Part shown: positions 15,594 through 38,405 of the stretch, piece after piece
Layout of the letters: each line of letters begins with the position of its first letter
How positions within the stretch are numbered: position 1 is the first letter of the stretch
Program-made: the position numbers and the translations under genes
The notes under the pieces: model-generated
What the model saw: the letters and a program-made list of their open reading frames with translations, nothing else
What the model was told of the DNA's origin: nothing
Databases searched by the model: none
Source: Nanobdellota archaeon
Lineage (GTDB): Archaea; Nanobdellota; Nanobdellia; SCGC-AAA011-G17; UBA489
Reading direction: 5' to 3'
DNA length: 39,133 bases
Assembly: GCA_030699455.1 (NCBI GenBank)
Contig: JAUYMN010000028.1
Span: forward strand, 1-39,133

Positions 15594-15645
15594 GAATGAG
15601 AACTAATAAAAAGGAGTTTGAACTGTAATATATAGAGGTGTATGC

Positions 15646-16191: not shown

Positions 16192-16197
16192 TAAAAA

Positions 16198-20176: not shown

Positions 20177-22321
20177 ATGGCTAGGAAAGATGTTGATGAT
20201 ATAATTGATAAGTATGAACATAAACTTGAAGATGAGTATGGGGATGGATATGTTGAAAATTTTGAACCTGTATTAATGAATAAGGATTATGAAGTTTTTC
20301 GTTCTGAGGTTTTGGAGAGCAAGGTAACTAACTATGAAAGGTGGTGTAATGTTGCTGAGAATATAATAAAAGTTAATCCCTCTGAAAAAGACCTGCCTAA
20401 GTTGGAGGAGAGTATTAGGGTTGCACACTTAAATGTTACCCCTCAATCTGCAGCCAGCCTCGGCGCTTTATGTGGCATTTTATTGATTTTTTTTGGACTG
20501 CTCCTTTTTGGTCTTGGCTATGCCCTTGGAATGGTATTTTATTTTTTTCCAATATTTTTATTAATTGCTGGGGCGATTGTGATAAAGCCAATAGGAAACA
20601 TTCCAATATACCTTGCAAATAAATGGAGGCTTGAAGCCAGTAACCAGATGGTTTTATGTATTTTGTATATTGTTATGTACATGAGGCATACCAGTAATTT
20701 AGAACATGCTGTAAGATTTGCAGCTGAACATGTTGGCCCTCCGCTGGGACTTGACTTAAAAAAAGTTTTTTGGGATATTGAAACTCAGAGGTTTTTTAGC
20801 ATCAAAGAAAGCTTGGATTATTATCTTGAAAGCTGGAGAGAATATAATCTGGAATTTGTTGAGGCATTTCATCTCATTGAAGGCAGTTTGTATGAACCTA
20901 ATAATGAGAGAAGAATTGGGTTACTCGAGAAATCTCTTGAGGTAATGCTTGATGGAACATATAACAAAATGCTTCATTATGCACATAATCTGAAAGGGCC
21001 GGTTACATTGTTGTATATGCTTGGCGTTATTCTGCCAATACTCGGACTTGTTATTTTTCCTTTAGTTGGTAGCTTTTTGGGTGGTGCAATAAGGTGGTAT
21101 CATCTTGCATTGCTTTACAATATTGTTTTGCCAATTATCTTAATTTCTATGGGCAATAATATGCTTGCGAAGAGGCCAACAGGATATGGCGAAAGTGAAG
21201 TTCTAAAAACTAATCCAGAGTTCAAAATTTACGAACAGTGGGTCGTTAATGACAGACTTATCCCAATAAGTCCAAAAGCTTTTGGAATTTTCCTTGCATT
21301 GGTTATTGGCTTTTTTGGATTTTTGCCATTGCTGATGCCGCTTATTAGCCCAGGATATGATTTTGAAATACCTGGTCTTGGTCTTTTTTTAGATTTTAAG
21401 GATGGAAACGGCCCTTATGGTGTTGGATCATTGATTGCAGGGATGCTGATTCCATTAGGAATGACTGTGGGAATATCCACTTATTATGGAATAAAAACTA
21501 AAAGATTAATCAAAATAAAAAAACAAGTCGATGACCTCGAGGAAGAATTTAGCGGTGCAATATTTCAGCTTGGAAACAGGATTGGAGATGGCATCCCCTC
21601 TGAAATGGCATTTGGTGAAGTTGCCGAAACTATGAGTGGCACACCGACTGGAAAATTTTTTACTGCTGTAAATAGAAACATCAGAAAATTAGGTTATGGA
21701 ATGAAAAAAGCAATTTTTGATCCTCGTGTTGGCGCAATATTGTTATTTCCCAGCAACCTGATACAGAGCACTATGAAAGTTCTTGTCCAAAGCTCCAATA
21801 AGAGTCCGCAGGTGGTTAGCACAAGCTTGATAACAATCAGCAAGTACATTGACAGAATAAAGCAAGTGAATGAAAGGCTGAAGGATTTGCTTGCTGACAT
21901 TCTAAGTAGCATGATAAGCCAGATTAATTTTTTGACACCATTGATTGCAGGTATTGTTGTTGGTGTTGGAAGTATGGTTACAACAATAATTAACAAGCTA
22001 GGCACTGCTTTTGAAACTTTAGGTTCTGGTGCAGGTGATTCGCCCACAAATATAGCTACTCTTGCAAACATATTAAATGTAAAGGATGCTATTCCAGGAT
22101 ATTTTTTTCAGCTCGTTGTTGGAATTTATGTTCTGGAGATAACAATAATATTAACAATTCTTAGTACCAGTATTGAAAGGGGGGCCGATGTGACAACTAC
22201 AAGAAACAGAATAGGCAAGAATGTTAAGAGAAGCATGACATTCTATTTTATTGTATCTTTAATTGGTGTTATCTTGTTTAACTTATTGGCAAATGCTGTA
22301 AGCTTTGTCCCTTCCCCATAA
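20177..22321 (+). CDS. TadC/ArlJ-like pilus platform protein with two T2SSF-like halves
   Basis: 714 aa, two membrane halves; LEEEFSGAIFQLGNRIGDGIPSEMAF typical of T2SSF; follows the ATPase. Confidence 0.88.
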   Translation: MARKDVDDIIDKYEHKLEDEYGDGYVENFEPVLMNKDYEVFRSEVLESKVTNYERWCNVAENIIKVNPSEKDLPKLEESIRVAHLNVTPQSAASLGALCGILLIFFGLLLFGLGYALGMVFYFFPIFLLIAGAIVIKPIGNIPIYLANKWRLEASNQMVLCILYIVMYMRHTSNLEHAVRFAAEHVGPPLGLDLKKVFWDIETQRFFSIKESLDYYLESWREYNLEFVEAFHLIEGSLYEPNNERRIGLLEKSLEVMLDGTYNKMLHYAHNLKGPVTLLYMLGVILPILGLVIFPLVGSFLGGAIRWYHLALLYNIVLPIILISMGNNMLAKRPTGYGESEVLKTNPEFKIYEQWVVNDRLIPISPKAFGIFLALVIGFFGFLPLLMPLISPGYDFEIPGLGLFLDFKDGNGPYGVGSLIAGMLIPLGMTVGISTYYGIKTKRLIKIKKQVDDLEEEFSGAIFQLGNRIGDGIPSEMAFGEVAETMSGTPTGKFFTAVNRNIRKLGYGMKKAIFDPRVGAILLFPSNLIQSTMKVLVQSSNKSPQVVSTSLITISKYIDRIKQVNERLKDLLADILSSMISQINFLTPLIAGIVVGVGSMVTTIINKLGTAFETLGSGAGDSPTNIATLANILNVKDAIPGYFFQLVVGIYVLEITIILTILSTSIERGADVTTTRNRIGKNVKRSMTFYFIVSLIGVILFNLLANAVSFVPSP

Positions 22322-22377: not shown

Positions 22378-24714
22378 ATGATAAAAGGGGCTGGCAAGTA
22401 CTTTTCAAAAAATATTTTGTTTTACTTATTTGCTACATTTTTTTTAGCCAGCACTTTTTTTGCAAAGAGCGTTAATGCAGTAGTATATCTTGGTCAGACA
22501 TATACTGGCATGGGTATTGGTGGATATTATTATGGCGATATTCAAAATCTTTATTATTCTTATCCTGGGTGGATTGATTTTATATTATTTTTGATGATAT
22601 TTACATCGCTTGGAAAATTTGTTTTTGGAAAGAAGTTTAAAGATAACAGCTCTGCAGCAAATGGACTTTCTCTTTCACTTGGGGTTGCACTCTCTCTTGG
22701 GATGGTATTATGGGAAAGTAGCACTGGTGTTTTTCTGTTAAAAAATATGGCTGTGCTCGCTCTAGGACTTGGCATTGTTGCAATATTTGTTTTATTATAC
22801 CTTGTTTTTAGAAAATGGATGAGAATAGGCCAATTGCTTTCCCTTATTCTCGCATTGGTTGCTTCTTACTTCTTATGGCATTTTGTTGCAAGATATGTTG
22901 TTGGCATGGGTCCAGTTGATTTTGTTAGGTATGTTATGGGCGGATTTAATTTTGATGCCAATGAAATCATAAACTGGGCAGTTATGATTATATTTTTTGG
23001 TGGATTACTTGCTTTAATGGGGATGGGTATTAAAAATGCAGGTAAGGCAATACCTGCCAAGAATAATAAAAATTCGAGTTTATTTGGAGAAGGGCAGAAA
23101 AATTCAGTTGTTGATAATACAGGCACTGCAACGCCAGTAAAAGGTAGCAGTAAGTGGCGATGGCCTTTTAGAAAAAAGCAAAAACCAGCCGTTGATAAGA
23201 AAAGTACTACGCCACCAGTAAAAGACAATGATGATACGGACGTTGCACCGTTGCCTGAACCGTTGCCAATAGCTGATTCTGAAGTAATTTTAGATCCAAA
23301 ACAAAAAAAGATAACTTGTGACAGGATTAAACATCTTGTAAGGGTTGCTGATTATGCCAAAGAAGCAGTCAATGAGTCTGTTGTTATTGTTGATAAGCTG
23401 AGGGGAGAGATAAATATGTTGAATCATGCAATTAGCGTAGATCCTTCTCTTACAGACAAGGCGAGAATTTTACAAGATAAGTTTATGGAAATTAACAATA
23501 CTCTCAACTCATTAAGAGTTGGACTAATCAATCAGGCAACACCAATAAAGGTATTTTCTGGAATGGAACTATGGATAAATCATATCAAAACTTATTTTGA
23601 TAAAAACATCTATTCAGTTATATCAAATGTTCAATCTCTTAATGCTTACGTTGGTGAAATTGAAAATACATTAAAACTGCTCGATATTGCTTTTGGCAAA
23701 ACTTCTGAAAAATCTGGCAAGATGAAACGGCTTGGGCAATCAATCAGAATCATTATTTCCGCCAGTGAGCCATATAAAAAAATGTTTAGACCATCGGTTG
23801 TTGATATGAATCTTAACCAATACAAAAACTTTCTTGTAGGGCTTTGGAATACATATGGGTGTGGAGATACTCCGAAACCACCACAACTAGCATTAGCACC
23901 ACCAAGAGATACTCCGAAACCACCACAACTAGCATTAGCAGCACCACCAGCACAACTAGCATTAGCAGCACCACCAGCTACCCCCTTACTTGAGAATAAA
24001 GCAGAAGATGGTGCTGGCATGAATCAACCTCCAAAAAATGAATTGCCTGAGATGGGAGACAGGGAAGAGATAAACAAAGATATTGACAGAATAGAAGAAA
24101 TAATCGGCAAAGGCATTCGTTCTTTGCCACGCGAAAAAGGTAGCCTTTTTGGAAGGGGAAGTAACAGAGATACAACAATTGCAAACTTTGCATATAAACT
24201 TGTTTTTTCCAGAGAAACTAATCTGTCAAGAGAAATTGGAGAATTCCTATTGATAGAAATCAATAAAATTAAAGGTATTATCGGCGTTTTTATGAACTCT
24301 GAAAGTGTTGACAAAAATTCCAAGGAATTTAATAAAATGATGCAAGTTTATGAGGATATTATTCGTGCTGAGCCACTGCTTAAAAAACTTAGCAAGGGCA
24401 TTAGGTCAAGAGAAATACTAAATTCTATGAGGGTTGCATATCAACAAGATTTTGCATATGATAATAAGGTTGCACAGGTATATAAAACAAGATTTAACGA
24501 ACCACTCGCACGTGCTAGCTGGGATGAAGCATTATCAAAAATATTTTCTGATCCAGTTAAGCTCGAATTTTTATTAATCAATAACCAAGGGAACAAGGGG
24601 CTAACAATACTTTACACTTATTTTAGTAGGGCCTATGGATCTTTAAGAATATTAGACAGAAACTTTAGAAGGATGGCAAAAGCAATAACTGCCTTGAAGA
24701 GGCAGATAAGATGA
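22378..24714 (+). CDS. Large membrane protein with N-terminal TM region, Pro/Ala repeat linker and helical C-terminus
   Basis: 778 aa, signal-like N-terminus then TM helices; tandem repeats near 23864-23978. Confidence 0.75.
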   Translation: MIKGAGKYFSKNILFYLFATFFLASTFFAKSVNAVVYLGQTYTGMGIGGYYYGDIQNLYYSYPGWIDFILFLMIFTSLGKFVFGKKFKDNSSAANGLSLSLGVALSLGMVLWESSTGVFLLKNMAVLALGLGIVAIFVLLYLVFRKWMRIGQLLSLILALVASYFLWHFVARYVVGMGPVDFVRYVMGGFNFDANEIINWAVMIIFFGGLLALMGMGIKNAGKAIPAKNNKNSSLFGEGQKNSVVDNTGTATPVKGSSKWRWPFRKKQKPAVDKKSTTPPVKDNDDTDVAPLPEPLPIADSEVILDPKQKKITCDRIKHLVRVADYAKEAVNESVVIVDKLRGEINMLNHAISVDPSLTDKARILQDKFMEINNTLNSLRVGLINQATPIKVFSGMELWINHIKTYFDKNIYSVISNVQSLNAYVGEIENTLKLLDIAFGKTSEKSGKMKRLGQSIRIIISASEPYKKMFRPSVVDMNLNQYKNFLVGLWNTYGCGDTPKPPQLALAPPRDTPKPPQLALAAPPAQLALAAPPATPLLENKAEDGAGMNQPPKNELPEMGDREEINKDIDRIEEIIGKGIRSLPREKGSLFGRGSNRDTTIANFAYKLVFSRETNLSREIGEFLLIEINKIKGIIGVFMNSESVDKNSKEFNKMMQVYEDIIRAEPLLKKLSKGIRSREILNSMRVAYQQDFAYDNKVAQVYKTRFNEPLARASWDEALSKIFSDPVKLEFLLINNQGNKGLTILYTYFSRAYGSLRILDRNFRRMAKAITALKRQIR
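23864..23978 (+). repeat. In-frame tandem repeats: 42-bp period x2, then perfect 27-bp x2
   Basis: GAGATACTCCGAAACCACCACAACTAGCATTAGCA at 23864-23898 and 23906-23940; ACAACTAGCATTAGCAGCACCACCAGC at 23925-23951 and 23952-23978. Confidence 0.95.
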
Positions 24715-24748
24715 GAATATTTAAATACTTTAATGGATGTGAAACCAT

Positions 24749-25168
24749 ATGGAACTGGTGATATTACCTGCAGTTTATCTTGGTTTAGTTATCGGACTGT
24801 ATGAGGCTATTTTACTTCACAGGGATGTTTCTATTCCTGCCCATAGGTTTGGGCACATGATTCATGCGCTTATCTTTTCAGTGGTCGCAGTTTTTGCTAC
24901 AATGAATGTTGATTTTGTGTTTGGAAGTATACCTTCACTGAGCAATATAATGTACATTGGAAATCCATTGGTATTCCGAATTCTGATTGGGATTATTGTA
25001 ATGATTAAGATACACACTATTAGTGCTGTTGCTCCAGGGATGGCTGGTGCAAGTATTGGGCTTAAAGAAAAATGGAGCCATAGCTTTATTATTGCTGGAT
25101 TGATTATTGCAACGTATTACATATGGCCATATATAGAACCTGTTGTCGGGTTTTTGCCAGGGATTTAA
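24749..25168 (+). CDS. Multi-pass membrane protein
   Basis: 139 aa hydrophobic; TATA-like ATTTAAATA 22-30 bp upstream. Confidence 0.7.
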   Translation: MELVILPAVYLGLVIGLYEAILLHRDVSIPAHRFGHMIHALIFSVVAVFATMNVDFVFGSIPSLSNIMYIGNPLVFRILIGIIVMIKIHTISAVAPGMAGASIGLKEKWSHSFIIAGLIIATYYIWPYIEPVVGFLPGI

Positions 25169-25169
25169 A

Positions 25170-25439
25170 ATGCTAAGCGGATTTATGATGAGGGGAATTG
25201 ATCTTATAAATGGCAGTCCGTTGTTTGCTCTCTCCCCATTTTTATTATATGTTTTTATTTTCTGGGAGCTTTTTTGGAAAGGCATAGCTTTGTGGAAGAC
25301 AGGAAGGCACAATCAGATGGGCTGGTTCATTGCCATTTTACTGGTTAACTCTTTAGGCATATTACCAATAATCTATCTTTTGTTTTTTCAAAAAAGTGGA
25401 AGAATAATATCCAGCAAGAAACACAAAAAAAGAAAATGA
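25170..25439 (+). CDS. DUF5652-like small membrane protein
   Basis: SPFLLYVFIFWELFWKGIALWKTGRHNQMGWFIAILLVNSLGILPIIYLLFF. Confidence 0.75.
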   Translation: MLSGFMMRGIDLINGSPLFALSPFLLYVFIFWELFWKGIALWKTGRHNQMGWFIAILLVNSLGILPIIYLLFFQKSGRIISSKKHKKRK

Positions 25440-25440
25440 A

Positions 25441-25986
25441 TTATTTTTTATCATGTATATGGTGTTTTCCAGTTGCTTTTTCATAATATGGGAGTATTTT
25501 TAGGAGTCTAGGTACTCTTGTTATAGGTCTTAGAAAACGTAGTGCAAATCTTGAACGTGAAAACTTTGCTACACTTTCTGATTCTTTTATGATTTTATTT
25601 GCCTCTGCATCAATTGCACCAAGCTCACTGAGTCCTATACCTGCATGCAGTATCGACTGTCCTTCTTTCAGTGTATCTGAAACTCTAAAAATTAGATATA
25701 CCTCTTCTACTGCCCTTAAGAATAGGTAGAAGGGGAATACTGCAAGTATGTCTAACCAATATAATTTTATGAATTTCTTTATTTTTCTTATTCTGATGTA
25801 TTTGAAAACCAAATCAACAGCGAATGTTGTGACTATTATATAATCTAAGATAGTGATTTCTAAATGGTAATCTAATGCTAGCTCATGAAAGAATAATGAA
25901 ATGATTATTATAATCATCAGGAGAACAACCATGTATGGCACAATGGTGTCTACAAAGCGTTCTACCTTGTGAAACCCCTTTTTCAT
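25441..25986 (-). CDS. Voltage-sensor-like / ion-transport-like membrane protein without obvious pore domain
   Basis: Four-helix arrangement; S3-like YWLDILAVFPFYLFL; Arg-periodic RSRFALRFLRPITRVPRLLK. Confidence 0.5.
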   Translation of the reverse strand: MKKGFHKVERFVDTIVPYMVVLLMIIIIISLFFHELALDYHLEITILDYIIVTTFAVDLVFKYIRIRKIKKFIKLYWLDILAVFPFYLFLRAVEEVYLIFRVSDTLKEGQSILHAGIGLSELGAIDAEANKIIKESESVAKFSRSRFALRFLRPITRVPRLLKILPYYEKATGKHHIHDKK

Positions 25987-26059: not shown

Positions 26060-26173
26060 ATGCAGAGAGGTTTTATTGAATCAAGGGCACTGATAATCCT
26101 TATTTTGGTTATTATATTTGCAATAGTTACGTATTCAATTGTTACAGGAGTGTTAAATGAAATTCTCGGGTAA
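26060..26173 (+). CDS. 37-aa single-TM prepilin-like peptide (not in ORF track)
   Basis: MQRGFIESRALIILILVIIFAIVTYSIVTGVLNEILG; overlaps next gene; TATA-like TTAAATAATTTT upstream. Confidence 0.6.
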   Translation: MQRGFIESRALIILILVIIFAIVTYSIVTGVLNEILG

Positions 26174-27041
26174 AAATGGGACGCTGATACAAACAACAAT
26201 CATAGTCTTAATACTCGCTATAATAACTTTGGTTTTTGCAGGGATGCTGATTGCAAAAGTCAGGGGTGTTGCAGAGCTTACTGCTGAGGACAAAATTTGT
26301 CTTGCCAGTGTTACAATTGCCGCTAAAACAAAATTAGCCGGAACAGGTTTTTTTTCTACGGATTTGAAATGCCCAACCAGAGAATTTAATTCTGAGGCAC
26401 AAAGCAAGGAGCAAGTTAAACTGGAATTGGCAACTGAAATGTATAGATGCTGGGCAAAGTATGGAAGCGGTAAAATTGATTTTATCAGCAATTTAGATGC
26501 TGGACCAAGCGATACACATTGTTTTATATGCTCAAATATTTATTTTGATAATGATGACAATCTGCCAAGCTATGTGGAATTTGTAAGCTACCTCGACAAT
26601 ACTAAACTGCCCGGACAGGATATTACTTTTGTTGAGTCTTTTACTGGAACCAAGGGATCTAGTTTGAAGTTTGGCGGTGATTCTGGGATTTCCACTGAGA
26701 AGATAGTTGGCAATGTTGAAAATCCTCTTTATGTTGTTTTTAGGGTGAATAAATATAATAGTGATAATGAAATGATAGCCAACTTTTTTACAGGAGACTT
26801 TGATTCAGCAGGGGTTCCAACTGATGCAGCTGTTTATGGTGTAGCTTCCAGTAAAATTGGGAAAAAAGCTGCAACTATGATAGGTGGCAAGCTTGGAACT
26901 AAATTCATTCCAGGTGCTGGGCAGGTAATGCTGTTTGTGGATATGGCAACTTCTTTTTTCTGGGCTGATGAAATGAGACCTTCATTGGCAGTTTATAATG
27001 TTGGCGATATGGTAGAGGTATGTGATACACTTGGCAAATAA
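26157..27041 (+). CDS. Pilin-like protein with N-terminal TM
   Basis: GKNG|TLIQTTIIVLILAIITLVFAGML N-terminus and Cys-containing ectodomain. Confidence 0.65.
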   Translation: MKFSGKNGTLIQTTIIVLILAIITLVFAGMLIAKVRGVAELTAEDKICLASVTIAAKTKLAGTGFFSTDLKCPTREFNSEAQSKEQVKLELATEMYRCWAKYGSGKIDFISNLDAGPSDTHCFICSNIYFDNDDNLPSYVEFVSYLDNTKLPGQDITFVESFTGTKGSSLKFGGDSGISTEKIVGNVENPLYVVFRVNKYNSDNEMIANFFTGDFDSAGVPTDAAVYGVASSKIGKKAATMIGGKLGTKFIPGAGQVMLFVDMATSFFWADEMRPSLAVYNVGDMVEVCDTLGK

Positions 27042-27189
27042 AAAAGGCACCGAGCTTATTGGAAATGAAATAGCCTTATGGCTGATTGCAATACTTATGT
27101 TATTCATTTTGATTTACCTGATTAGTGGAGGATGGGAGAAGATGCTCGATTTGGTCGATAAATTTGAAAGTGGGGTGTTGTTTGGATGA
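27022..27189 (+). CDS. Short prepilin-like protein (GTG start; TTG 27031 also possible; not in ORF track)
   Basis: ...NKKG|TELIGNEIALWLIAILMLFILIYLISGGWEKMLDLVDKFESGVLFG; overlaps both neighbours. Confidence 0.6.
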   Translation: MIHLANKKGTELIGNEIALWLIAILMLFILIYLISGGWEKMLDLVDKFESGVLFG

Positions 27190-27329
27190 TATTTAAAAAG
27201 AAAGGTGAACAATTGACTTTGCAAACCATAGTAATCTTTATTTTTATAATTGTTGCAATACTCATGGCATTTATTTTTGCAGGGGATGTTATTCAGGCCG
27301 GACAGTTATTTTTAAGTATGTTTAATTAG
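27186..27329 (+). CDS. 47-aa prepilin-like protein (not in ORF track)
   Basis: MIFKKKG|EQLTLQTIVIFIFIIVAILMAFIFAGDVIQAGQLFLSMFN; ATGA overlap with preceding gene. Confidence 0.68.
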   Translation: MIFKKKGEQLTLQTIVIFIFIIVAILMAFIFAGDVIQAGQLFLSMFN

Positions 27330-27359
27330 CATAATGTTTATAAGTGCCTTAGGGCTGTT

Positions 27360-29027
27360 ATGAACATGAGTAATATGAATAAGGTGGGGGCGCAATTGAC
27401 ACTTCAGACCGTTATTGTTTTTTTATTATTGGTGATTTTGACTGTCTCGGTTTTGCTTTTTGGCGGTGAAGCTTTTGGGAAAGAAAGAAGTATTGTTATG
27501 GATGATTTGAAAGAGCTGGAGGCTAATAAAAAGTTTCTAAAACCATGGGGCGATCTTACTGATGATACTAAGAAAGAGTTAACTAAAAATAATTTTACTT
27601 TAGCATTGAAAAAAATGCTTGATGAAATTGATAAAAAGATATCAGATGCTCGTTCTCTTGCACAAAAGGATGATTTATCAAGTGCTAATAATCTTTTGAA
27701 TTCTGCGGAGGCAAGGGTTAAAGAAGTAATTGGTGCAATAGACAAAAAAAGAGAGGAAGAAAAAGATGAGTTCAACTTGAAATATGTTTCTGAAAAAGAG
27801 AAAGCCAAACAATACCAAATACAAATTGGAAGCTTGAAAAAAGAATATGCTTCAAAAACGTCCTTAAAAAAAGTTTTAGATGATATCGAGTCAGGAAAAC
27901 TTACTGGTGAAGATGCTATTTCTGAACTTGAAAAAAATTTGGCTGGTAACACTGGTACAATTGATAGTGCAAAAATAAGAGTTGAAATATTCTTTAATAA
28001 ATACACCGATTCTAATGCTGGAAACGTTAAAAATTTTAGAGATGAACAAATGGATGGAATTACTTCTTCGCTAACTAAAGCAGAAATAGAATATGCTATT
28101 GGATTAATTTATGAAGATGAACGGTCAGGATTAGATAGGAGTGTTATTAGTTTATATGCAGAACCACAGTTTAGAGATGTTTTTAGAACGTATCTTGACG
28201 AAATACCATTTGCTCCAGAAGCAGCCTATAAGGTTGCTAAGTATGAGACAGATAAAAAGAAACAGTTTAGTTTATTGAAAGTGTGGTGGGAAAAATATCA
28301 TGAAAAAAAATATATTGGAGGAAATTATGAATTGATTGAAGAGGATATCTTAAGTTTTGTTAAGAAAGGCTATTCTGAGTATGATATTTATATGGAGCTA
28401 CATGGATTTGTTTGGGAATTTGATCTATTTAATAATAATGATTGTGCTGAGTTTTGCTCTTATTTTGGAGAACCTTTTACAGATCCAAAAAAACGCAATG
28501 TTGATTGTCTAGATAGTATCAGTGCAACCCCATTAACTATGACCTGTGAGCAGTATCCTGAAAAGAATGAGCAAAGGGGGTATAAAGAAGTTACTTTTGA
28601 TATATCTACTGGGAGGTATAAACATTCTGACCCTCCTTCTTTCTCTGTTACAAATTGTGAATATGGACCTAAAGTTGATGGAATAAATGGCGGTTATGTT
28701 GCCGGTGTTTATGATAAGGCTCCTGTTTGGATGGAATTTAAAGTTGTTGATAAATTAACTAATGAGGAGGTTTGCAATACTTATAGTGGGAAAAATTCAT
28801 TAAGTTATAAGACTGTAGATAGTTTTAAAAATGTGGCTAATGAGTATGGAATATTTCCTACAAGTGGTAATTGTGAGGCTATAATATTTGCTATGTATGC
28901 AGGTAAGGCTGGAAGTAGACTATTTGAGGGGACTGGTGTGTTTGAGAATAATGATAAAAATAACGTTGAGAAAGCAAGTGCAAAAGTTTATTTCCCGATT
29001 TGTGATGCATATCATAGTGGATCTTAA
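27360..29027 (+). CDS. Large pilin-like protein
   Basis: NKVG|AQLTLQTVIVFLLLVILTVSVLLF, then coiled coil and Cys-containing domain; TATA-like box upstream. Confidence 0.7.
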   Translation: MNMSNMNKVGAQLTLQTVIVFLLLVILTVSVLLFGGEAFGKERSIVMDDLKELEANKKFLKPWGDLTDDTKKELTKNNFTLALKKMLDEIDKKISDARSLAQKDDLSSANNLLNSAEARVKEVIGAIDKKREEEKDEFNLKYVSEKEKAKQYQIQIGSLKKEYASKTSLKKVLDDIESGKLTGEDAISELEKNLAGNTGTIDSAKIRVEIFFNKYTDSNAGNVKNFRDEQMDGITSSLTKAEIEYAIGLIYEDERSGLDRSVISLYAEPQFRDVFRTYLDEIPFAPEAAYKVAKYETDKKKQFSLLKVWWEKYHEKKYIGGNYELIEEDILSFVKKGYSEYDIYMELHGFVWEFDLFNNNDCAEFCSYFGEPFTDPKKRNVDCLDSISATPLTMTCEQYPEKNEQRGYKEVTFDISTGRYKHSDPPSFSVTNCEYGPKVDGINGGYVAGVYDKAPVWMEFKVVDKLTNEEVCNTYSGKNSLSYKTVDSFKNVANEYGIFPTSGNCEAIIFAMYAGKAGSRLFEGTGVFENNDKNNVEKASAKVYFPICDAYHSGS

Positions 29028-29062
29028 AATAAAAATGCTTATATATTCAAAACAAGGCGTAA

Positions 29063-29515
29063 ATGATGATGGAAAGAAGTGAAAGTTTCAGAAAATTTTT
29101 ATCTGATAAAAGAGGGGTGGAATTAACGCTTAATACGGTCATTATTGCAATTTTAATCGTTCTTGTCTTAATTGTTATCATTGGGTTTTTTTTGGGTGGA
29201 ACAAACAAGATGAAGGATACTATTTTCAGAATTTTTGCTGGTGGAACTGCTGGAACTGACATAGCTATTGCAGTGGAACAGTGTATTAGCTATTGTAACC
29301 AAGCGGAAGATTGGAGTCCTACATTGCAACAGACTTCTCCATATTGCAAGTTTAGGTTTAGACTGGATATGAATAATGATGGTGAGGCTGATAAATCGGG
29401 AGATACAGGTGTAGGTGATGGTTATGGTGATAATACAGCCAAAGATAAAGAATATATTAAGTATGGGTGTGATGATGAACCTTTGAATGTGCAGTGCGAA
29501 TTTAAGTGTGCATAA
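29063..29515 (+). CDS. Pilin-like protein
   Basis: SDKRG|VELTLNTVIIAILIVLVLIVIIGFFLGG. Confidence 0.72.
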   Translation: MMMERSESFRKFLSDKRGVELTLNTVIIAILIVLVLIVIIGFFLGGTNKMKDTIFRIFAGGTAGTDIAIAVEQCISYCNQAEDWSPTLQQTSPYCKFRFRLDMNNDGEADKSGDTGVGDGYGDNTAKDKEYIKYGCDDEPLNVQCEFKCA

Positions 29516-29673
29516 TAATTTTATATTAACTAATTTGGTTTTGTTGAGAGTTTCAAGTTTAGCATAAAAAACCATATTTTTTTGATATTATAAATTTTCA
29601 GGAATAATAAAAACTAGATTTTCAACAGCAGCTAATTCCATAAGTTTTTATATTTGTGCTTGTTTTTTCTGAT

Positions 29674-30192
29674 ATGGCTGTTTATAGGAAGGGGAGTGTT
29701 TCTGAAATGTCTGGCTGGACCATAGCGATAGTATATGGCATTGCAGTTTCTATTATTCTTTTTGGGATTGTAAATGGTCTTTGGGGGCTATTGGGAAAAT
29801 CACAGATTGACAATACTTCATATAACTCTTTTGTGGATGTATATAACTCTATATCTAGATTAAGTGAAGGTGGTGGCGAGAATTCCAATATCCCAATTGA
29901 GTTGAAAGATGATTTTGCTGTTGTCGGATTTAGCAAAGATTCTAGCAGGGTTACATGTTCCAGTACACCTATAATAAAACCCGACAATTGTGATGGTGCC
30001 TGCTTATGTATCTGTGAGGTGATTGCTGAAGAAAGCATGTGCCTGACCGAGAGGGCTAAATGTCTGAACTATGGTTCTAGCGATATAGATTTTGAAGGGG
30101 GATGTAATATTGTTCTTGGCACAGGAAATTTTAATTATGTTCGGGTGGCAAACCATGATGGAAAAATCAGCATCAACGATCCAATTGCATGA
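29674..30192 (+). CDS. Pilin-like Cys-rich protein (start ATG 29674 preferred)
   Basis: VYRKG|SVSEMSGWTIAIVYGIAVSIILFG; TATA-like TTTTTATATT about 25 bp upstream of ATG 29674. Confidence 0.68.
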   Translation: MAVYRKGSVSEMSGWTIAIVYGIAVSIILFGIVNGLWGLLGKSQIDNTSYNSFVDVYNSISRLSEGGGENSNIPIELKDDFAVVGFSKDSSRVTCSSTPIIKPDNCDGACLCICEVIAEESMCLTERAKCLNYGSSDIDFEGGCNIVLGTGNFNYVRVANHDGKISINDPIA

Positions 30193-30213
30193 GAGCAACC
30201 AATATAAACTTCT

Positions 30214-30225
30214 AACTTATAAGTT
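30214..30225. promoter_or_regulatory. Perfect 12-bp palindrome AACTTATAAGTT just before the start codon
   Basis: Lies between AATATAAA (about 30200) and ATG 30231. Confidence 0.4.
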
Positions 30226-30230
30226 GTTAT

Positions 30231-30635
30231 ATGAATAAAAGAGGGACTATTCAATGGATTTTTATGATTAATCTTTTTTTAGTGTTGATCATAATGTTTG
30301 CATTACTAAGCAGGATTAATGCCGCAAAGGATGATACAGGATATAACTTAGAGTATTACACGAGGGATATAGCATACGGCACCGAAGTTATGCTTTGGTC
30401 TGATGCCAACGAAATTAGCTATATTTACCCTATGAAGAAAGGTTATGGGCTTGTAATAGATTCTGATGCGGGGAAGGTTTTTGCAAGAAAAGGATCATCA
30501 TACGATGACTTTGATTTTAGAGTAAGGGATGGTTTTACTATTGAAGCCGAACCAATAAAAAAAGAAGGATATGAAAACCCTTACATAATTGTCAAAAAAC
30601 CAAAGGGGGGTGATTCTTCTGATCTTCTTGGATAA
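30231..30635 (+). CDS. Pilin-like protein
   Basis: MNKRG|TIQWIFMINLFLVLIIMFALL. Confidence 0.68.
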   Translation: MNKRGTIQWIFMINLFLVLIIMFALLSRINAAKDDTGYNLEYYTRDIAYGTEVMLWSDANEISYIYPMKKGYGLVIDSDAGKVFARKGSSYDDFDFRVRDGFTIEAEPIKKEGYENPYIIVKKPKGGDSSDLLG

Positions 30636-31062
30636 GAAAGGACAAACAAGCTCAGGGCAACTTGCAAATCAGCTTGTTCTTTGGCCTTTTTATACAGTGG
30701 TGATAGCTGTTGCCGCATTGATTATTGTTATATCATTAAGTTATTATTTGAACAGAGATGTTCAGGATCATGATTTGCAGTTTTTGGTTGCCAGAAACTA
30801 TATTGAAAAGAATTTTGTTTTTGGAGGAGAAACCAGCAAGAAAGATTTAACTAATTTTGAAGGTGTTAACGATTTGAAATTTGGAGTAAAAATACAAGCT
30901 GGCAATGAAAATTATTTTGCCAACAGAAAATTGTATGATGATTATGACTTATGTGGAATAAGCAATAGTCCATTTTATTGCAGTGATGAGATGAAGGACT
31001 TTTATCTTGTTGATGGAGAACTTAAAATAATTAAAATAAATATGGTGGCTAAGTATGAATAA
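30610..31062 (+). CDS. Pilin-like protein (GTG start proposed)
   Basis: LDKKG|QTSSGQLANQLVLWPFYTVVIAVAALIIVISL; overlaps preceding gene. Confidence 0.68.
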   Translation: MILLIFLDKKGQTSSGQLANQLVLWPFYTVVIAVAALIIVISLSYYLNRDVQDHDLQFLVARNYIEKNFVFGGETSKKDLTNFEGVNDLKFGVKIQAGNENYFANRKLYDDYDLCGISNSPFYCSDEMKDFYLVDGELKIIKINMVAKYE

Positions 31063-31552
31063 AAAAGGCATTATTGGATTTGAGGAAGTTGCTTCCCTTA
31101 TACTTATCATGGTTGCTGTTTTAGTCTTTGTGCTTATTTTTGGGTTTAATCTTTTACTGGAAAGCGCAAAAAATAGTGTCTTTGGAAGTGGTTCTTCCGT
31201 AGATGAAACAATAACTGCTTTAAGTGTGGATGGTAGCAGACAGCAGGCATTTGCCCTTTCCAAAACACCGATCAACGGAATGCTCATGGGCGATTTGATT
31301 GTTAAATCTGTGGAAAGTGGAGATTATACACTGCTGACTAAAAAAATGAATGAGATGCTTGGAGATGGAATGTACTGGGAGTTGGAAGTTTATGATAACC
31401 TTAAGGGAGGAAATGCTTTAATTGATTTAGGAAAAGAAGGATGGATTGCCAAAGACTGGAAAACAGACTTTAAGGAAATGACCATTCCAGGGTATGGCAA
31501 ATATACCAGCCTGAAGCTGAACATCAAAATAGCAGAAGGTGTTGCTTTGTGA
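31055..31552 (+). CDS. Pilin-like protein with Glu at +5
   Basis: MNKKG|IIGFEEVASLILIMVAVLVFVLIFGF; overlaps preceding gene by 8 bp. Confidence 0.72.
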   Translation: MNKKGIIGFEEVASLILIMVAVLVFVLIFGFNLLLESAKNSVFGSGSSVDETITALSVDGSRQQAFALSKTPINGMLMGDLIVKSVESGDYTLLTKKMNEMLGDGMYWELEVYDNLKGGNALIDLGKEGWIAKDWKTDFKEMTIPGYGKYTSLKLNIKIAEGVAL

Positions 31553-31588
31553 TGAGATTATGATTAAAGTGTATCAATTGGAAGAATA

Positions 31589-32386
31589 ATGAAATCCAGG
31601 AAAGGTCTGCTGATGACAGGGGTAAGTATTGTTTTTGTAGTATTACTTATTTATACTGCTGTATTGTTTTTTATTGAGCGGGAAGACATTAATGAAAGGC
31701 TTGTATTAGGTGGGATGGTTATAGATGTTTTAGCTGCCGAGGAAAGTTCTGGCATTGCAGAGTATTATCTTGAAAAATCAGGACAGTATGCCCTGTTGAA
31801 ATCTGTTAAAAAGACAACTGAAGAAGGTTTTTTGGATGAAAATTGTGAAGCATATTATTCTGGTGAAGGATGTAAAATCAATGTTTATGATTTTGCAGAT
31901 AGTGTAAAGAAAAATTTGCCAGGATATTTTGAAGAGTACATTATTGCAAACAAGTTAGATATGGATGTTAAAAAATATAAATTTGATGTTATTGTTGCTG
32001 GCGGAAAGGTGATGTTATATGCTGAAACTTCTGAAAAAATTGATTTTGGCGATGCTTCTGTGAGGGAAATGGAATATAAAAAATCTGGAAATTTCAACAC
32101 TGAATTGAATTTTGCATTTTCTCAATATCTTGAGGCTATTGAATCTATTGAAAGTAATATCCTTTGTTTATTGGAATCTGAAGATGAGCAGGTCAAGGAA
32201 GATTTAGGCAGTTCTTCAACTAAAAAAAATCCGAAAGAATGTCTAGATGATAAATTTTTTAATGTTAAAAAGAAAAATGGAATTCTAAGCTTTAAATATA
32301 AAATGAAAGGAGCTTTATTTGAGGAAAATCTTGATGTTAAGCTTGATGTTAACTTAAAAGGTCTTGGTGAAGAGGCAAATTTATAG
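31589..32386 (+). CDS. Pilin-like protein
   Basis: MKSRKG|LLMTGVSIVFVVLLIYTAVLFF. Confidence 0.68.
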   Translation: MKSRKGLLMTGVSIVFVVLLIYTAVLFFIEREDINERLVLGGMVIDVLAAEESSGIAEYYLEKSGQYALLKSVKKTTEEGFLDENCEAYYSGEGCKINVYDFADSVKKNLPGYFEEYIIANKLDMDVKKYKFDVIVAGGKVMLYAETSEKIDFGDASVREMEYKKSGNFNTELNFAFSQYLEAIESIESNILCLLESEDEQVKEDLGSSSTKKNPKECLDDKFFNVKKKNGILSFKYKMKGALFEENLDVKLDVNLKGLGEEANL

Positions 32387-32392
32387 TTTTAT

Positions 32393-32653
32393 ATGTTTGA
32401 TATAATTAGATATGCTGAAAGAGTTGTGAAGATTAGAACTTATAAAATCGTAGATTCCAAAAATCCTATGTTTAAATTATATACAAACAGAACATGTGTT
32501 TCTCTGCCAGGCACCGGTCCAACATTATGCAGCCCCCTTGGATCCGCATGTGATAATTCTGCGGAGAGACATAGCGTATGCATGAATAACCAGTGTTTGG
32601 CTATGCCAGGACCAGGACCAAATCAATGCAATCCAGTCGGCTCTAACTGTTAG
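32393..32653 (+). CDS. Small protein with duplicated Cys/Pro/Gly module
   Basis: CVSLPGTGPTLCSPLGSAC and CLAMPGPGPNQCNPVGSNC. Confidence 0.6.
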   Translation: MFDIIRYAERVVKIRTYKIVDSKNPMFKLYTNRTCVSLPGTGPTLCSPLGSACDNSAERHSVCMNNQCLAMPGPGPNQCNPVGSNC

Positions 32654-32698: not shown

Positions 32699-33697
32699 AT
32701 GATTGGATTAAACTTAGCAGATATTATTTCTCAGATAAAGGACAAGGCTGGACTGTCTGATGAGGAAATTAAAATAAAGATTTCCCAAAAAAAAGACAGG
32801 TTGAGCGGACTTATCAGCGACGAGGGTGCAGCACATATACTTGCAAATGAGCTTGGAATTGATTTGATGGAATCAATCAGGAAACATGGTCTCAAGATTG
32901 AAAAATTACAATCAGGGATGAGGGTTGGTGTTACCGGCAAGGTTGTGAAGATGTATGAGGTGAGAAGTTTTAATAAAAATGGAAGGGAAGGAAGGGTTGG
33001 AAGTTTTCTTGTCGGTGATGATACAGGATTGATAAGAATTGTCTTGTGGGATGAAAACCATATTCTAAAGATGGAAAATGGTGACATCAAAGAAGGTGTT
33101 GTCATGAAGATTGAAAATGGCAATGTAAAAGAAAATAACGGCTATAAAGAAATGCATCTTGGCAATTACAGCACTATTGAACTAAATCCATCAGGTGTTG
33201 AAATTGTTATTATTCAGAGAACAGAACCACAAAACTTTTCTGGAAGTGTTAATGAAATAACTAAATTGAGTGATGCTAATGCTGGTGATAACATTTCTAT
33301 CTATGGAACCATTGTCCAGCTTTTTGATCCAAGGGCCTATGATGGTTGCAGTGAATGCGGTAGAAAAGCAGTCGATGGAAAGTGCAATAATCATCCAGGA
33401 GCAGCAATTAATAAGATTCCAATATTAAATTTCTTTGTTGATGATGGATATGGCGGTATGAGGGGCGTTGCATTTAGGGATCAGGCAGCCAATATATTAG
33501 GATTGAGTGAGAAGGAAATACAAATGATACTGGACAATCCCGTGAAATTTCAAGAAGTGAAAACTAAGGCATTAGGAATGCAGAAGGTTCTGAGTGGCAG
33601 GGTCAATTCCAATGAGATGTACAATAGAAATGAGTTTATGGTTAGATCAGTGCATGAAATGGATGCAAAAGAAGTATTAGCTAAGTTTTTAAATTAG
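32699..33697 (+). CDS. RPA-like ssDNA-binding protein with OB folds and Zn finger
   Basis: VTGKVVKMYEVRSF...GEVGSFLVGDDTG-like OB patterns and CSECGRKAVDGKCNNHPG. Confidence 0.85.
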   Translation: MIGLNLADIISQIKDKAGLSDEEIKIKISQKKDRLSGLISDEGAAHILANELGIDLMESIRKHGLKIEKLQSGMRVGVTGKVVKMYEVRSFNKNGREGRVGSFLVGDDTGLIRIVLWDENHILKMENGDIKEGVVMKIENGNVKENNGYKEMHLGNYSTIELNPSGVEIVIIQRTEPQNFSGSVNEITKLSDANAGDNISIYGTIVQLFDPRAYDGCSECGRKAVDGKCNNHPGAAINKIPILNFFVDDGYGGMRGVAFRDQAANILGLSEKEIQMILDNPVKFQEVKTKALGMQKVLSGRVNSNEMYNRNEFMVRSVHEMDAKEVLAKFLN

Positions 33698-33714
33698 TTC
33701 GTACTGTTATTTTT

Positions 33715-34101
33715 ATGGTAGTAAGAAAACCACATGGTGTGAATCATGGCATTGGTTCGGCTAAAAAAGGTGATATAATTCTATTATTGTCTTTGGTTGT
33801 TCTATTGCTGGCAATGGGTTATGCGAGAGATGGCAGACTGTTAAATCCAGTTACCGGCAACATTATTGAGGACTACAACGAAGTTTGGATGTCTGAGTGC
33901 AGTCCAGATGGAGCAAGCGATACAATTAATGAATTAGTTTATTTTTACGGATGTGGTGATGCTTCTGGAATGTGCTGGTTAGCTGCTAATGGTGTTGAAT
34001 TAAAAAAGAATATAATAGTTAATCTTGATTGCAGTGATAGTAATTCCAGGCAGGAATGGATTAATAATTGTGATGAGTTTTATGGTCATATTTGCAGTTA
34101 A
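33715..34101 (+). CDS. Secreted or membrane-anchored Cys-containing protein
   Basis: AKKGDIILLLSLVVLLLAMGYA N-terminus, ectodomain with about 6 Cys. Confidence 0.55.
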   Translation: MVVRKPHGVNHGIGSAKKGDIILLLSLVVLLLAMGYARDGRLLNPVTGNIIEDYNEVWMSECSPDGASDTINELVYFYGCGDASGMCWLAANGVELKKNIIVNLDCSDSNSRQEWINNCDEFYGHICS

Positions 34102-34228
34102 TGGTTTTATTGGTTGCCTGGCATCGCTTTTTAAGTTATCTGCCGTATTTTGAAAATCCTGCTTGTATAATTTCAGATTTTGTAAACTTAACTAATGGCG
34201 GAAGCTCTGCTTTGAGATTGGAGATAAA

Positions 34229-34264
34229 TACCAAAATCTGGTAAATTTATACCAAAAAATGGTA
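34229..34264. promoter_or_regulatory. Tandem operator-like dyads TACCA-N5-TGGTA x2
   Basis: TACCAAAATCTGGTA 34229-34243 and TACCAAAAAATGGTA 34250-34264, 21-bp repeat spacing, just upstream of TATA-like CTATTTAAAT and ATG 34300. Confidence 0.75.
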
Positions 34265-34299
34265 AACTATTTAAATGACAAGTCTTCAACAATATTAAA

Positions 34300-34872
34300 A
34301 TGAAAGCAGAAGAAAAAGTGTATAAAGCATTCTTCGATTTAAAAGAGTCAAAACTCTACTATAATCAAATAAAAGAGCAAGCTAATCTATCCCATAGTTC
34401 GCTTCAAAATGCTCTGGAAAAACTAAAAAAAGCAAATATCTTAAGTGAAGAAAAGACAAAAGCAAACACTTTCTACAAAATAAAGGACAAAAAGCTCCTT
34501 GCCTTAAAATTCTCAGAGATAGCAACCCAAAAATTCAATAATCTAAATCCTAATATCAAAATACCATTAAAGAATTTTTTGAAAAAACTGCCAGAGGATA
34601 TATCCACCATCATCTTATTTGGCTCTGCATCCAGAAAAGAGGAAACAAAAGATAGTGATATAGATCTCTTAATAGTCTCCAATAAGAAGATAGACCTATC
34701 AACAAACAAAAAAGAGGCAGAAATAACTTCAAATTATCCTATCTCACTATTTAATGCAACCATAACACAATTTAAGGAGAATAAAGACCATGTCATAATT
34801 CAGGCAAGAAAGACAGGTTTCCCAATATACAAAGAACAGAACTTTTATGAGGTGATTTTAGATGGATATTGA
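34300..34872 (+). CDS. MNT-type nucleotidyltransferase antitoxin with N-terminal wHTH
   Basis: GSASRKEETKDSDID matches GSx10DxD exactly; N-terminal winged-helix-like segment. Confidence 0.85.
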   Translation: MKAEEKVYKAFFDLKESKLYYNQIKEQANLSHSSLQNALEKLKKANILSEEKTKANTFYKIKDKKLLALKFSEIATQKFNNLNPNIKIPLKNFLKKLPEDISTIILFGSASRKEETKDSDIDLLIVSNKKIDLSTNKKEAEITSNYPISLFNATITQFKENKDHVIIQARKTGFPIYKEQNFYEVILDGY

Positions 34873-35360
34873 CCGGCTTTTTGCGGATAAAGAATACCTC
34901 GAGAGCGAAATTGAGTTCTTCCTATCAAAAAAAACACATCAAGATAATAATAAAAAACCATGAACTCACAAGTTCGCATATGGAAAAGGCAAGGCATAAT
35001 CTGGAATTCTATCAATTGAACAAAAAACACGATAAATTCAACGATTGGCTAGTTGTAATATTATACTACGCACTTTATCATTCCGCATTAGCATTAGTTA
35101 CAAACAAAAATTATGCCTCAAAGAACCATTATGCAACTATACTCATTCTCATAAAAGAATACAACATAACAAAAGAAGAGGCTCAACTTTTAAACGAACT
35201 TTCCATCAATAAAGAAGACGCTGAGCTATACACTCAACTCAAAGATGATAGGCATGACGCAAGCTATGCGACAAATATTAAGTTTGACAACCAGACAATA
35301 CAAGACTATGAAATCAAAGTAAACGAGTTCATTAACAAAGCTCAGGAAATGATACAATGA
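34862..35360 (+). pseudogene. HEPN-domain protein (MNT partner) with apparent frameshift at an A8 tract
   Basis: Frame from ATG 34862 encodes MDIDRLFADKEYLESEIEFFLSKK; removing one A of 34927-34934 joins it to HIKIIIKNHELTSSHMEKARHNLEFYQL...DRHDASY. Confidence 0.7.
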
Positions 35361-35545
35361 AAAAACTCATAATCGAAGAACACGTTGAAGAGAATGTTTT
35401 GGATATTCTCAAATCATTAGATTACACTATAACCAGGGGGAGCAATGAAGAATATTTGCATGGCGGAAGCTCTGCTTTAAGAGCAGACTATAATTTGTTT
35501 ATAAAGGCACTTACCGTACTTACCATCTGGAACATAATTCTTTAA
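35357..35545 (+). pseudogene. Probable N-terminal remnant of a type I restriction HsdR-like protein
   Basis: EENVLDILKSLDYTITRGSNEEYLHGGSSALRADYN resembles the HsdR N-terminus, then stops at 62 aa. Confidence 0.5.
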
Positions 35546-35637
35546 ATAATATCCGAGTTTATTTACTTATAGCCTAAAAAGGGCAAAAAAATCAAAACCT
35601 AAAAGGGCCTTTGCTTTTGCAAGGGTAGGAGACAAAA

Positions 35638-35937
35638 ATGAAAAAAGAAGATGTAAAAATAAGTTCTATGGATTCAGTTCCAAATAGGCCATATAAAGAT
35701 TGGAAGGCCGGAAATATACAAGCCGCCATCTGGAAGAATAAGAAAAATATGGAAGATGGTTCTGAGATTGAGTTTAAGACAGTCAGTCTTACAAGAAGTT
35801 ATAAGAAGCCAGGCGAAGATTTGTGGAGACACGATGTTCTAAATCTAAGAAGGAACGACATACAAAAAGTTATGGTCGTGTTACAAAAGGCACAAGAAGA
35901 AGTTTTACTTTCTGAGAAAAAAGATGAAGGGGATTGA
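35638..35937 (+). CDS. Conserved small protein directly upstream of radA
   Basis: 99 aa, WKAGNIQAAIWKNKK...VSLTRSYKKPGEDLWRHDVLNLRRNDIQKVMVVLQKAQEEV; SD-like GGTAGGAG. Confidence 0.65.
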   Translation: MKKEDVKISSMDSVPNRPYKDWKAGNIQAAIWKNKKNMEDGSEIEFKTVSLTRSYKKPGEDLWRHDVLNLRRNDIQKVMVVLQKAQEEVLLSEKKDEGD

Positions 35938-35943
35938 TTGGCT

Positions 35944-36906
35944 ATGACAAAAACTAAAAAAGAAATTGGAATTACTGATTTGCCAGGTGTCGGTGCTGCT
36001 ACTGCAGAAAAGCTTGCAGAAGCAGGTTTTAATACTTTAATGTCATTAGCTGTTGCAAGTCCTGGAACTATTGTTGAAATTGCTGGAGTTGGTGAAGCTC
36101 CGGCAAGAAAAATTATTAATTCTGCAAGAAATTCTTTGGAAATGGGTTTCGAAAATGGTGTAGAGTTGCTTGAAAAAAGAAAAGCTATTTCTAAGATTAG
36201 TACTGGGAGCAAGGCTTTTGATGCCTTGATGGGCGGTGGTATTGAAAGCGGTGCCATAACTGAGGCTTATGCTGCTTTTGGTAGCGGTAAAACAAGTCTT
36301 GCGCATCAACTAGCTGTAAATGTTCAATTGCCAAGAGAACAAGGTGGTGCTGAAGGCATAGCAGTCTGGATTGATACTGAGGGAACCATTAGACCAGAGT
36401 ATTTGGAGAAAATTGCTATTGCAAAGGGCATGGATCCTGCCGAAGCACTAAAAAACTTTAGAGGGGTGAGGGCATTTAACAGTGATCATCAGATGCTCTT
36501 GGTTGAAAAGATAGGTGATTTAATAGAAAAAGAAAAATTACCTGTTAAACTTATTATTGTTGACAGCTTGATGGGACATTTTAGAAGTGAATTTGTTGGA
36601 AGAGGAACCCTTGCTGATAGACAGCAGAAGCTGAATAAACATATGCACGCTTTATTAAAGTTAGCTACCCAGCATAATATTGCAATATATGTTACTAATC
36701 AAGTAATGGCAAAGCCAGATACCTTTTTTGGAGATCCTACTACTGCTATTGGGGGGCACATAGTTGCACATACCTCTACATACAGGATTTATTTAAGAAG
36801 GGGTAAAAAAGGAGCAAGAGTTGCCAAGCTTGTAGACGCCCCTGCAATGGCTGATGGCGAGTGCGCTTTTATAGTGACTGATGAAGGAGTTAGAGACGTT
36901 CCGTAG
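35944..36906 (+). CDS. radA: DNA repair and recombination protein RadA (TTG 35938 also possible)
   Basis: Hh[13 protein letters not shown], Walker A FGSGKTS, Walker [26 protein letters not shown]. Confidence 0.96.
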
Positions 36907-37232: not shown

Positions 37233-38405
37233 TTAAGTAGGCGAGCGGGGGATTGAACCCCGGTCTTGGCCTCCGCAGGGCCACGTACTATCCACTATAC
37301 TACTCGCCTTTTTTAATCGTTGAATGTGTTTTGGGTTATTTGAACCTATTTCATCCATCCATTTTTTAAACATTGTTGGTCCATTTAAATATACTGCATA
37401 TTTGTATTTTACTGCAATATAACCAAGCTTTGTTAAAATATCAAATAATTGTTCTATAAATTCTGTAGATTTTATTGATATTGAAATTACTGGATAAGTT
37501 TTTCTACTTATGTAAACACATCCGTCTGTGTCAAATAACCCTCTTAAAAGTGCACGATATATTTTTTTATTTTTTGTTGCAAGAATTTGTTTTGGAATTT
37601 TTACTTTTTCAACTTTTTTCCCCCTTGGCAATCTCAAAACAATACTTTTGAAGTCAGCTAATGCCTTCGAACAAACTTCAAAACCTGAAAGATTTGGAAA
37701 TTGTCTTAATTTTAGGTCTAAATTGTAGACATCTTTGTAGAGTTTGAACATATAATTTTCAAAATATCTTTCTTCTCTTTTGTGACACCTGACAGAAAAG
37801 CAATTTCTATTTTTGCTTAGGTATCCATCCCCTATATGTATCCCTACTTCTTCTGCTAATTTAGTAGTTATTTTATTAGGGAGTTTTATTTTTCTCTCAT
37901 TATCTTTATGTGAATTTTTGATATTTTTTGTGTTTAGAAAGATTATTTCATTTGTGAAAAACTTTTGATATTTTTCTTCTAACTTTTTGCTTGCTAACTC
38001 TCTTTTTTTGATTTTTCCAATTAGTATCTTTTGTTTTAGATCTTTTCCATATTTTCCCCATAGATTACATCTAGTGGGTGATAGTTTTCCCATTGCCCTC
38101 ATGATTTTTGAATATTCTTTTTCCCCTACTCTTTCCCGTAACAATTTTGGTGCAATTATCCCCCCTATTTTTCCACCTTTCACTGCACCCCAATTATCTT
38201 GTTGCTGATCTAAAATTTCTAGATTATTTAATTCTAAAGGGATTATCTTGGAAGGAAGATAATTTTCTCCATATCTCCATTGTTTAAGGCCCCCTAGTGA
38301 AACATTCATTTTTTTAGATAATTCTTTTAGAGATTTGGAGTTATGCTTTTCTTTCAAGTGATTGAATAATTTTTTTCTTGATTTTTCCGATAATTTTAAT
38401 CTCAT
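37233..38405 (-). CDS. LAGLIDADG homing endonuclease-like protein with N-terminal HTH; ORF runs through tRNA-Arg
   Basis: Two LAGLIDADG motifs (EVGIHIGDGYL, LLRGLFDTDGCVYI); N-terminal HTH SLKELSKKMNVSLGGLKQWRYG; last about 25 codons are the tRNA sequence. Confidence 0.85.
   Translation of the reverse strand: MRLKLSEKSRKKLFNHLKEKHNSKSLKELSKKMNVSLGGLKQWRYGENYLPSKIIPLELNNLEILDQQQDNWGAVKGGKIGGIIAPKLLRERVGEKEYSKIMRAMGKLSPTRCNLWGKYGKDLKQKILIGKIKKRELASKKLEEKYQKFFTNEIIFLNTKNIKNSHKDNERKIKLPNKITTKLAEEVGIHIGDGYLSKNRNCFSVRCHKREERYFENYMFKLYKDVYNLDLKLRQFPNLSGFEVCSKALADFKSIVLRLPRGKKVEKVKIPKQILATKNKKIYRALLRGLFDTDGCVYISRKTYPVISISIKSTEFIEQLFDILTKLGYIAVKYKYAVYLNGPTMFKKWMDEIGSNNPKHIQRLKKASSIVDSTWPCGGQDRGSIPRSPT
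37238..37309 (-). tRNA. tRNA-Arg (anticodon GCG), no intron, CCA not encoded
   Basis: Cloverleaf: acceptor AGGCGAG/CUCGCCU, D stem GUAU/GUAC, anticodon stem UGGCC/GGCCA with loop CUGCGGA, T arm CGGGG-UUCAAUC-CCCCG. Confidence 0.95.

Follow-up and report, generated by a model that had tools for sequence, protein, structure and literature searches.

Does a run of ten genes in a Nanobdellota archaeon, each encoding a short basic leader followed by a hydrophobic helix, specify the subunits of a surface filament? The run lies in contig JAUYMN010000028.1 of assembly GCA_030699455.1, analysed over a stretch of 39,133 nucleotides (the window; contig C12 of a 770 kb genome). The nearest named relatives are Woesearchaeota metagenome-assembled genomes, which puts the organism among the DPANN archaea, in the phylum Nanoarchaeota. 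Our analyses indicate that this array probably encodes, as one operon, the subunits of a type IV filament present in nearly all Nanoarchaeota (Woesearchaeota and kin), for which we propose a role in contact with a partner cell.

The array comprises ten consecutive open reading frames (ORFs) at 26157-32386, all on the + strand. Every product has a short basic leader, a glycine with basic residues just upstream of it, and one strongly hydrophobic helix. The ORFs are listed with their slot, the position that each would take in the conserved succession described below; a slash marks the putative cleavage site.

26157 to 27041, + strand: slot B, pilin-like, 294 aa, GKNG/TLIQTT; class III N terminus, slot B alignment and conserved cysteine pattern.
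27022 to 27189, + strand: slot C, single-helix pilin-like, 55 aa, NKKG/TELIGN.
27186 to 27329, + strand: single-helix pilin-like, 47 aa, KKKG/EQLTLQ; QLTLQT core and F-like N terminus.
27360 to 29027, + strand: slot D by position, 555 aa, NKVG/AQLTLQ; large lineage-specific ectodomain.
29063 to 29515, + strand: slot E, candidate major pilin, 150 aa, DKRG/VELTLN; six cysteines and a DxNxDG calcium-loop-like motif.
29656 to 30192, + strand: slot G, 178 aa, YRKG/SVSEMS; start perhaps the ATG at 29674.
30231 to 30635, + strand: slot H, 134 aa, NKRG/TIQWIF.
30589 to 31062, + strand: slot I, 157 aa, DKKG/QTSSGQ; start uncertain.
31055 to 31552, + strand: slot J, 165 aa, NKKG/IIGFEE.
31589 to 32386, + strand: slot K, 265 aa, SRKG/LLMTGV; last in the array, size varying between lineages.

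The gene calls are mechanical, and the starts of 30589 and 29656 are uncertain. Few-base overlaps between neighbouring ORFs (27022/27041, 27186/27189, 30589/30635 and 31055/31062) are operon-like. Because the preceding gene (25441-25986) has the opposite orientation, the transcription unit probably starts near 26150. The initial annotation, made from the letters alone, had proposed a serial array of about 11 prepilin-like genes. The array and its prepilin-like character stand, with the count corrected to ten; a further candidate at 33715-34101 (128 aa, AKKG/DIILLL, a KKG-helix protein) lies beyond the RPA-like gene that follows the array and is not in the conserved set. The cleavage sites quoted in that annotation are all present in the ORFs, and the lengths of 47-555 aa agree with its range of about 40 to more than 500 aa.

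Prediction of class III cleavage sites had been put forward as a check on this assignment. Using a custom class III motif, and as background 110 ORFs that begin with a transmembrane segment from 293 kb of the same genome, we found the motif in 10 of the 10 array ORFs compared to 34 of the 110 background ORFs (Fisher p=2e-5). A strict [KR]G variant was present in 8/10 and 18/110, respectively (p=6e-5). Many of the motif-positive background ORFs belong to other pilin-like clusters (contigs C5, C20 and C18), and the test is thus conservative.

A candidate assembly motor is encoded upstream in the window.

17879 to 20161, + strand: FlaI/TadA/VirB11-type assembly ATPase, 760 aa, Walker A GTRSSGKT (PF00437, E=3e-14).
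20177 to 22321, + strand: divergent FlaJ/TadC-like membrane platform, 714 aa, about 10 hydrophobic segments.

The ATPase matched the NCBIfam FlaI model at 8e-36, below that model's cut-off, and in the PDB it matched 2oap at 1e-28 as well as CpaF and FlaI, which places it in the FlaI/PilB/VirB11 class of the type IV filament superfamily. The platform gene was found in 234 of the 238 genomes sampled across the phylum (order, class and phylum follow GTDB throughout), and its position and topology fit a GspF/FlaJ/TadC role. A PDB sequence search with the platform gave no match, and an earlier comparison based on seven sequences was not significant. A profile of 105 platform sequences, however, aligned to the T2SSF protein of contig C5 with E=5e-4, the best same-genome control reaching 0.037. 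Since the profile aligned to a T2SSF protein of its own genome better than the controls did, we assign the 20177 product, from its sequence and with moderate confidence, as a FlaJ/TadC-like platform. The genome contains one match to the A24 prepilin peptidase, on contig C25. This enzyme is present in 76 of the 83 genomes of the order, mostly in single copy, and in several of them it is encoded on the same contig as the platform gene, no more than about 20 kb away.

The archaellum likewise has a FlaI-like ATPase and a FlaJ-like platform, but the array lacks archaellin-type subunits, and contig C20 carries an archaellin/PilA-like cluster that is separate and has an ATPase of its own. Neither FlaH nor FlaF/FlaG was noticed in the Pfam results for the scanned window ORFs, for which no dedicated models were run. 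The array shares with the Epd and Tad (type IVc) pili the presence of single-helix subunits that are very short (47-75 aa). Those systems, however, encode the platform in two genes, each with a single T2SSF domain (PMC6668835), whereas a single platform gene, of 714 aa, stands beside the ATPase here. Besides the array, two pilin-like clusters, each with an ATPase and a T2SSF platform of its own, were seen in the same genome, at 3958-8109 of contig C5 and at 10834-12871 of contig C20.

To compare arrays, slots were assigned first by position and size and then tested on ectodomains with the helix removed. The same slot order was found in about 28 genomes of the order; in relatives from around a dozen of its families, this succession comes after the platform, with median lengths of ~284 (B), 52 (C), 265 (D), 123 (E), 61 (F), 284 (G), 130 (H), 159 (I), 169 (J) and 250 aa (K). 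Within slots, 1469 of 4148 ectodomain pairs matched at E<1e-3. Between slots, matches numbered 0 of 1184 pairs within one genome and 9 of 28708 pairs from different genomes. The best match was to the same slot in 177 cases and to another slot in 2, the same slot being recognisable across families. Therefore the array genes represent families of old origin, each conserved separately, rather than recent duplicates. The ectodomain of 27360 had no detected relative in this comparison, so its assignment to slot D is positional.

These data bear on the duplication that had been proposed from a repeated Q/E-L-T-L-Q/N-T core. The core is real in 27186, 27360 and 29063, but these are only three of the ten, and a slot E profile searched genome-wide at E<=1e-3 matched those three and the 27022 ORF (slot C) only. 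Recent tandem duplication, for its part, is ruled out by the ectodomain comparison. The core common to the three N termini may reflect compatibility within a filament core or an old kinship.

Conservation extends beyond the order. Slot B matches were obtained in 184 of the 238 phylum genomes and E-like N termini in 226, the latter match being carried mostly by the helix. Among the other orders of the class, the array mostly does not come directly after the FlaI/FlaJ pair but lies at another place in the genome, with its gene order kept; at one locus (L162), motor and array are together. Hidden Markov models trained on this order alone reached E-values down to 1e-34 in other orders, where confidently assigned slot pairs were concordant in order in 175 cases and discordant in 5. 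Thus gene order as well as presence is conserved across orders. In those orders, four more pilin-like genes lie directly upstream of slot B, and in the present genome their profiles identified exactly four adjacent genes on contig C18, arranged in that order (E-values of 1e-10, 3e-38, 2e-25 and 6e-11).

Contig C18, 2541 to 5046, - strand: four pilin-like genes, w-x-y-z, counterparts of the genes that lie upstream of slot B in other orders.

Together, the four-gene block and the ten-gene array bring the full set to at least 14 subunits. Two secreted proteins of 1300 and 1132 aa accompany w-x-y-z on C18.

Structural features of individual slots were also examined. Members of slot E contain 4-6 ectodomain cysteines, and a DxNxDG loop occurs in 15 of 28, compared to 0.5 expected from shuffles; a fair guess from sequence is that the slot E head is calcium-stabilised and disulphide-bonded. 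GspG, the major subunit of the type II secretion system (T2SS), has a calcium-binding site. Invariant cysteines are evident in the slot B alignment. Slots D, G and K are strongly variable in length (coefficients of variation 0.33-0.46), whereas B, C, E, F, H, I and J are not (0.04-0.14). In one family (f6), a large domain is common to slot K of one locus (L117) and slot G of another genome (L118) at 1e-75, a sign of domain grafting between slots. Of the AlphaFold2 models, built from five-sequence alignments, that of slot I shows a long N-terminal helix (residues 24-57, 60-76) followed by five strands (mean predicted local distance difference test score, pLDDT, 69), a layout that is pilin-like in the model. 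An archaellum filament appeared at rank 10 (E=0.6) when this model was used in a fold search, and was not used as evidence. PDB sequence searches with slots E and I returned no match.

Several observations weigh against the assignment as pilins. No Pfam or NCBIfam pilin family matched any array member, the platform is without any Pfam T2SSF match, and the fold search with the slot I model gave no significant PDB fold match. The model of slot E, with a pLDDT of 47, is unreliable. Array parts are scattered in some genomes, and the basic cleavage motif is found in fractions of only 0.26, 0.33 and 0.50 of the relatives' slots C, D and H, so that not all subunits need be processed. Could these products instead be surface proteins with a common basic, N-in membrane anchor, neither processed nor assembled? 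The motif-less members of slots C, D and H and the lack of a match to a known pilin family would fit such proteins. The operon with ATPase and platform, a peptidase near-universal in the order, the strict colinearity, the common core and the pilin-like layout of slot I argue against them, and we find this explanation hardly credible. The prepilin-like identity first proposed is upheld by the motif, the operon with its ATPase and platform, the prepilin peptidase, the kept order and the one model of pilin-like layout, and pilins are the best reading of the array products.

How might such a filament work? We infer that the prepilins enter the membrane, where the A24 peptidase would cut the basic leader after the K/R-x-G-like site, leaving a hydrophobic helix that could pack into the fibre core. 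The FlaI-type ATPase (17879) would drive assembly on the FlaJ/TadC-like platform (20177). Slot E (29063), perhaps together with tiny C/F-type subunits that have its core, may form the shaft, and G, H, I, J and K may be non-interchangeable minor subunits of an initiation or tip complex, like GspH-I-J-K. A tip complex is possible given that K is last in the operon and that K, D and G are the three strongly length-variable slots. These size-variable subunits would bear grafted domains that are specific to the lineage and turned towards the partner cell, and the filament would serve adhesion or cell contact in an (ecto)symbiotic lifestyle. We favour partner contact because the system is kept even in genomes of 0.5-0.7 Mb.

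The analogy to the Gsp proteins also suggests another machine. The minor pilins of the T2SS pseudopilus and of type IVa pili (GspG-HIJK) are arranged in the order major-H-I-J-K with K last, as in the array; unlike them, the present system is archaeal and has at least 10 subunits, and the likeness is one of layout. When tested, with slots E and I only, against PDB sequences and in the single slot I fold search, it gave no significant match. The set of 10-14 fixed subunits could be imagined as a short endopilus, a piston or pseudopilus that exports proteins and has no long fibre. Consistent with this are the many minor and few clear major subunits, the G-H-I-J-K order with K last, and the large secreted proteins (e.g., 900-1500 aa) whose genes adjoin the four-gene block, both here and in other orders. 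But a secretion partner was not identified, the E-type genes show conservation and a rich hydrophobic core, as shaft subunits do, and the parallel to Gsp is an analogy of layout, so that we regard a secretion machine as unlikely.

The genes after the array raise a further alternative, a pilus for DNA uptake or exchange.

32699 to 33697, + strand: RPA-like OB-fold protein after slot K (PF01336, 5e-8), also found at several detached arrays.

In relatives of the order, the RPA gene is usually next after slot K. Most complete arrays of the order, and at least five detached ones from other orders, have RPA behind slot K and RadA nearby, and the UV-inducible pili of Sulfolobales join cells for DNA repair under stress (PMC6668835). 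On the other side, ComEC was found in 0 of the 83 genomes of the order, and ComEC-type uptake through a competence pilus was rejected. The adjacency to RPA and RadA may only reflect old gene order because replication and repair genes are densely clustered in the window. A DNA pilus therefore appears distinctly improbable to us. RPA stands directly after slot K even in at least five motor-detached arrays, with RadA next in some (32699-36906 in the window); at 34300-35360, between the two, is a toxin-antitoxin-like pair of nucleotidyltransferase (MNT) and HEPN genes.

Further genes of the window flank the proposed filament genes.

15051 to 16722, + strand: three consecutive polytopic membrane proteins (180, 181 and 174 aa; 4-5 hydrophobic segments each), syntenic at three other loci.
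16723 to 17785, - strand: two soluble coiled-coil-like proteins (223 and 132 aa), syntenic at six other loci.
22378 to 25439, + strand: optional module of membrane proteins (778, 139 and 98 aa) between platform and array, present in near relatives L007 and L010 and variable elsewhere.

The three polytopic proteins have similar N termini and are candidate accessory parts. Directly before the array, the gene at 25441-25986 (- strand) encodes a small ion-channel-like protein (weak PF00520 match) that is kept in L007 and L010. At 32393-32653 is a Cys-rich ORF of 86 aa with a PGxGPxxC repeat, outside the conserved set. A LAGLIDADG-type ORF (PF14528) at 37233-38405 (- strand), the 3′ end of which overlaps a tRNA-Arg gene (37237-37309), resembles a homing-endonuclease gene located at a tRNA.

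Returning to the type IV filament, its closest known counterparts are the archaeal type IV pili (Makarova, Koonin and Albers 2016, PMC4858521) and the DPANN "dark matter" islands with diverse pilins predicted earlier (Makarova et al. 2019, PMC6393860, Fig. 2A). They share with it the FlaI-type ATPase, the TadC-like platform and diverse signal-peptide proteins, and the earlier prediction for DPANN drew on the same kind of evidence. In those systems, however, a few fast-evolving pilins are common to several motors, whereas here at least 10 fixed slots are kept in constant order phylum-wide and are often unlinked from the motor. A census reported nanoarchaeal ATPases without identifiable pilins, and methanococcal loci with at least five minor pilins (PMC4858521). 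Nanoarchaeota have been reported to have type IV pilus systems, with a FlaJ/TadC homologue rich in non-synonymous single-nucleotide polymorphisms (PMC6142677), and bacteria are known to have modular pilins that bear grafted domains (PMC10191384). The fixed-order, phylum-wide set of ten slots appears to be undescribed in the open literature that we searched. A bolder version of our proposal, which we hold only as a doubtful possibility, is a fixed-stoichiometry complex or heteropolymer of at least ten non-interchangeable pilins (14 with the four-gene block), kept by almost every member of this reduced-genome phylum because it is their organelle of partner contact. We know of no larger constant pilin set than one of ten to fourteen.

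For the contact between uncultured Nanoarchaeota and their partner cells, the array provides named, testable candidates, and the slot profiles allow "dark matter" genes in hundreds of genomes to be annotated. The findings suggest a constant, multi-subunit plan for an archaeal pilus, in contrast to the usual picture of fast-changing, exchangeable archaeal pilins. The recurrence of the array across a phylum of small, probably symbiotic archaea points to a surface fibre kept throughout the group.

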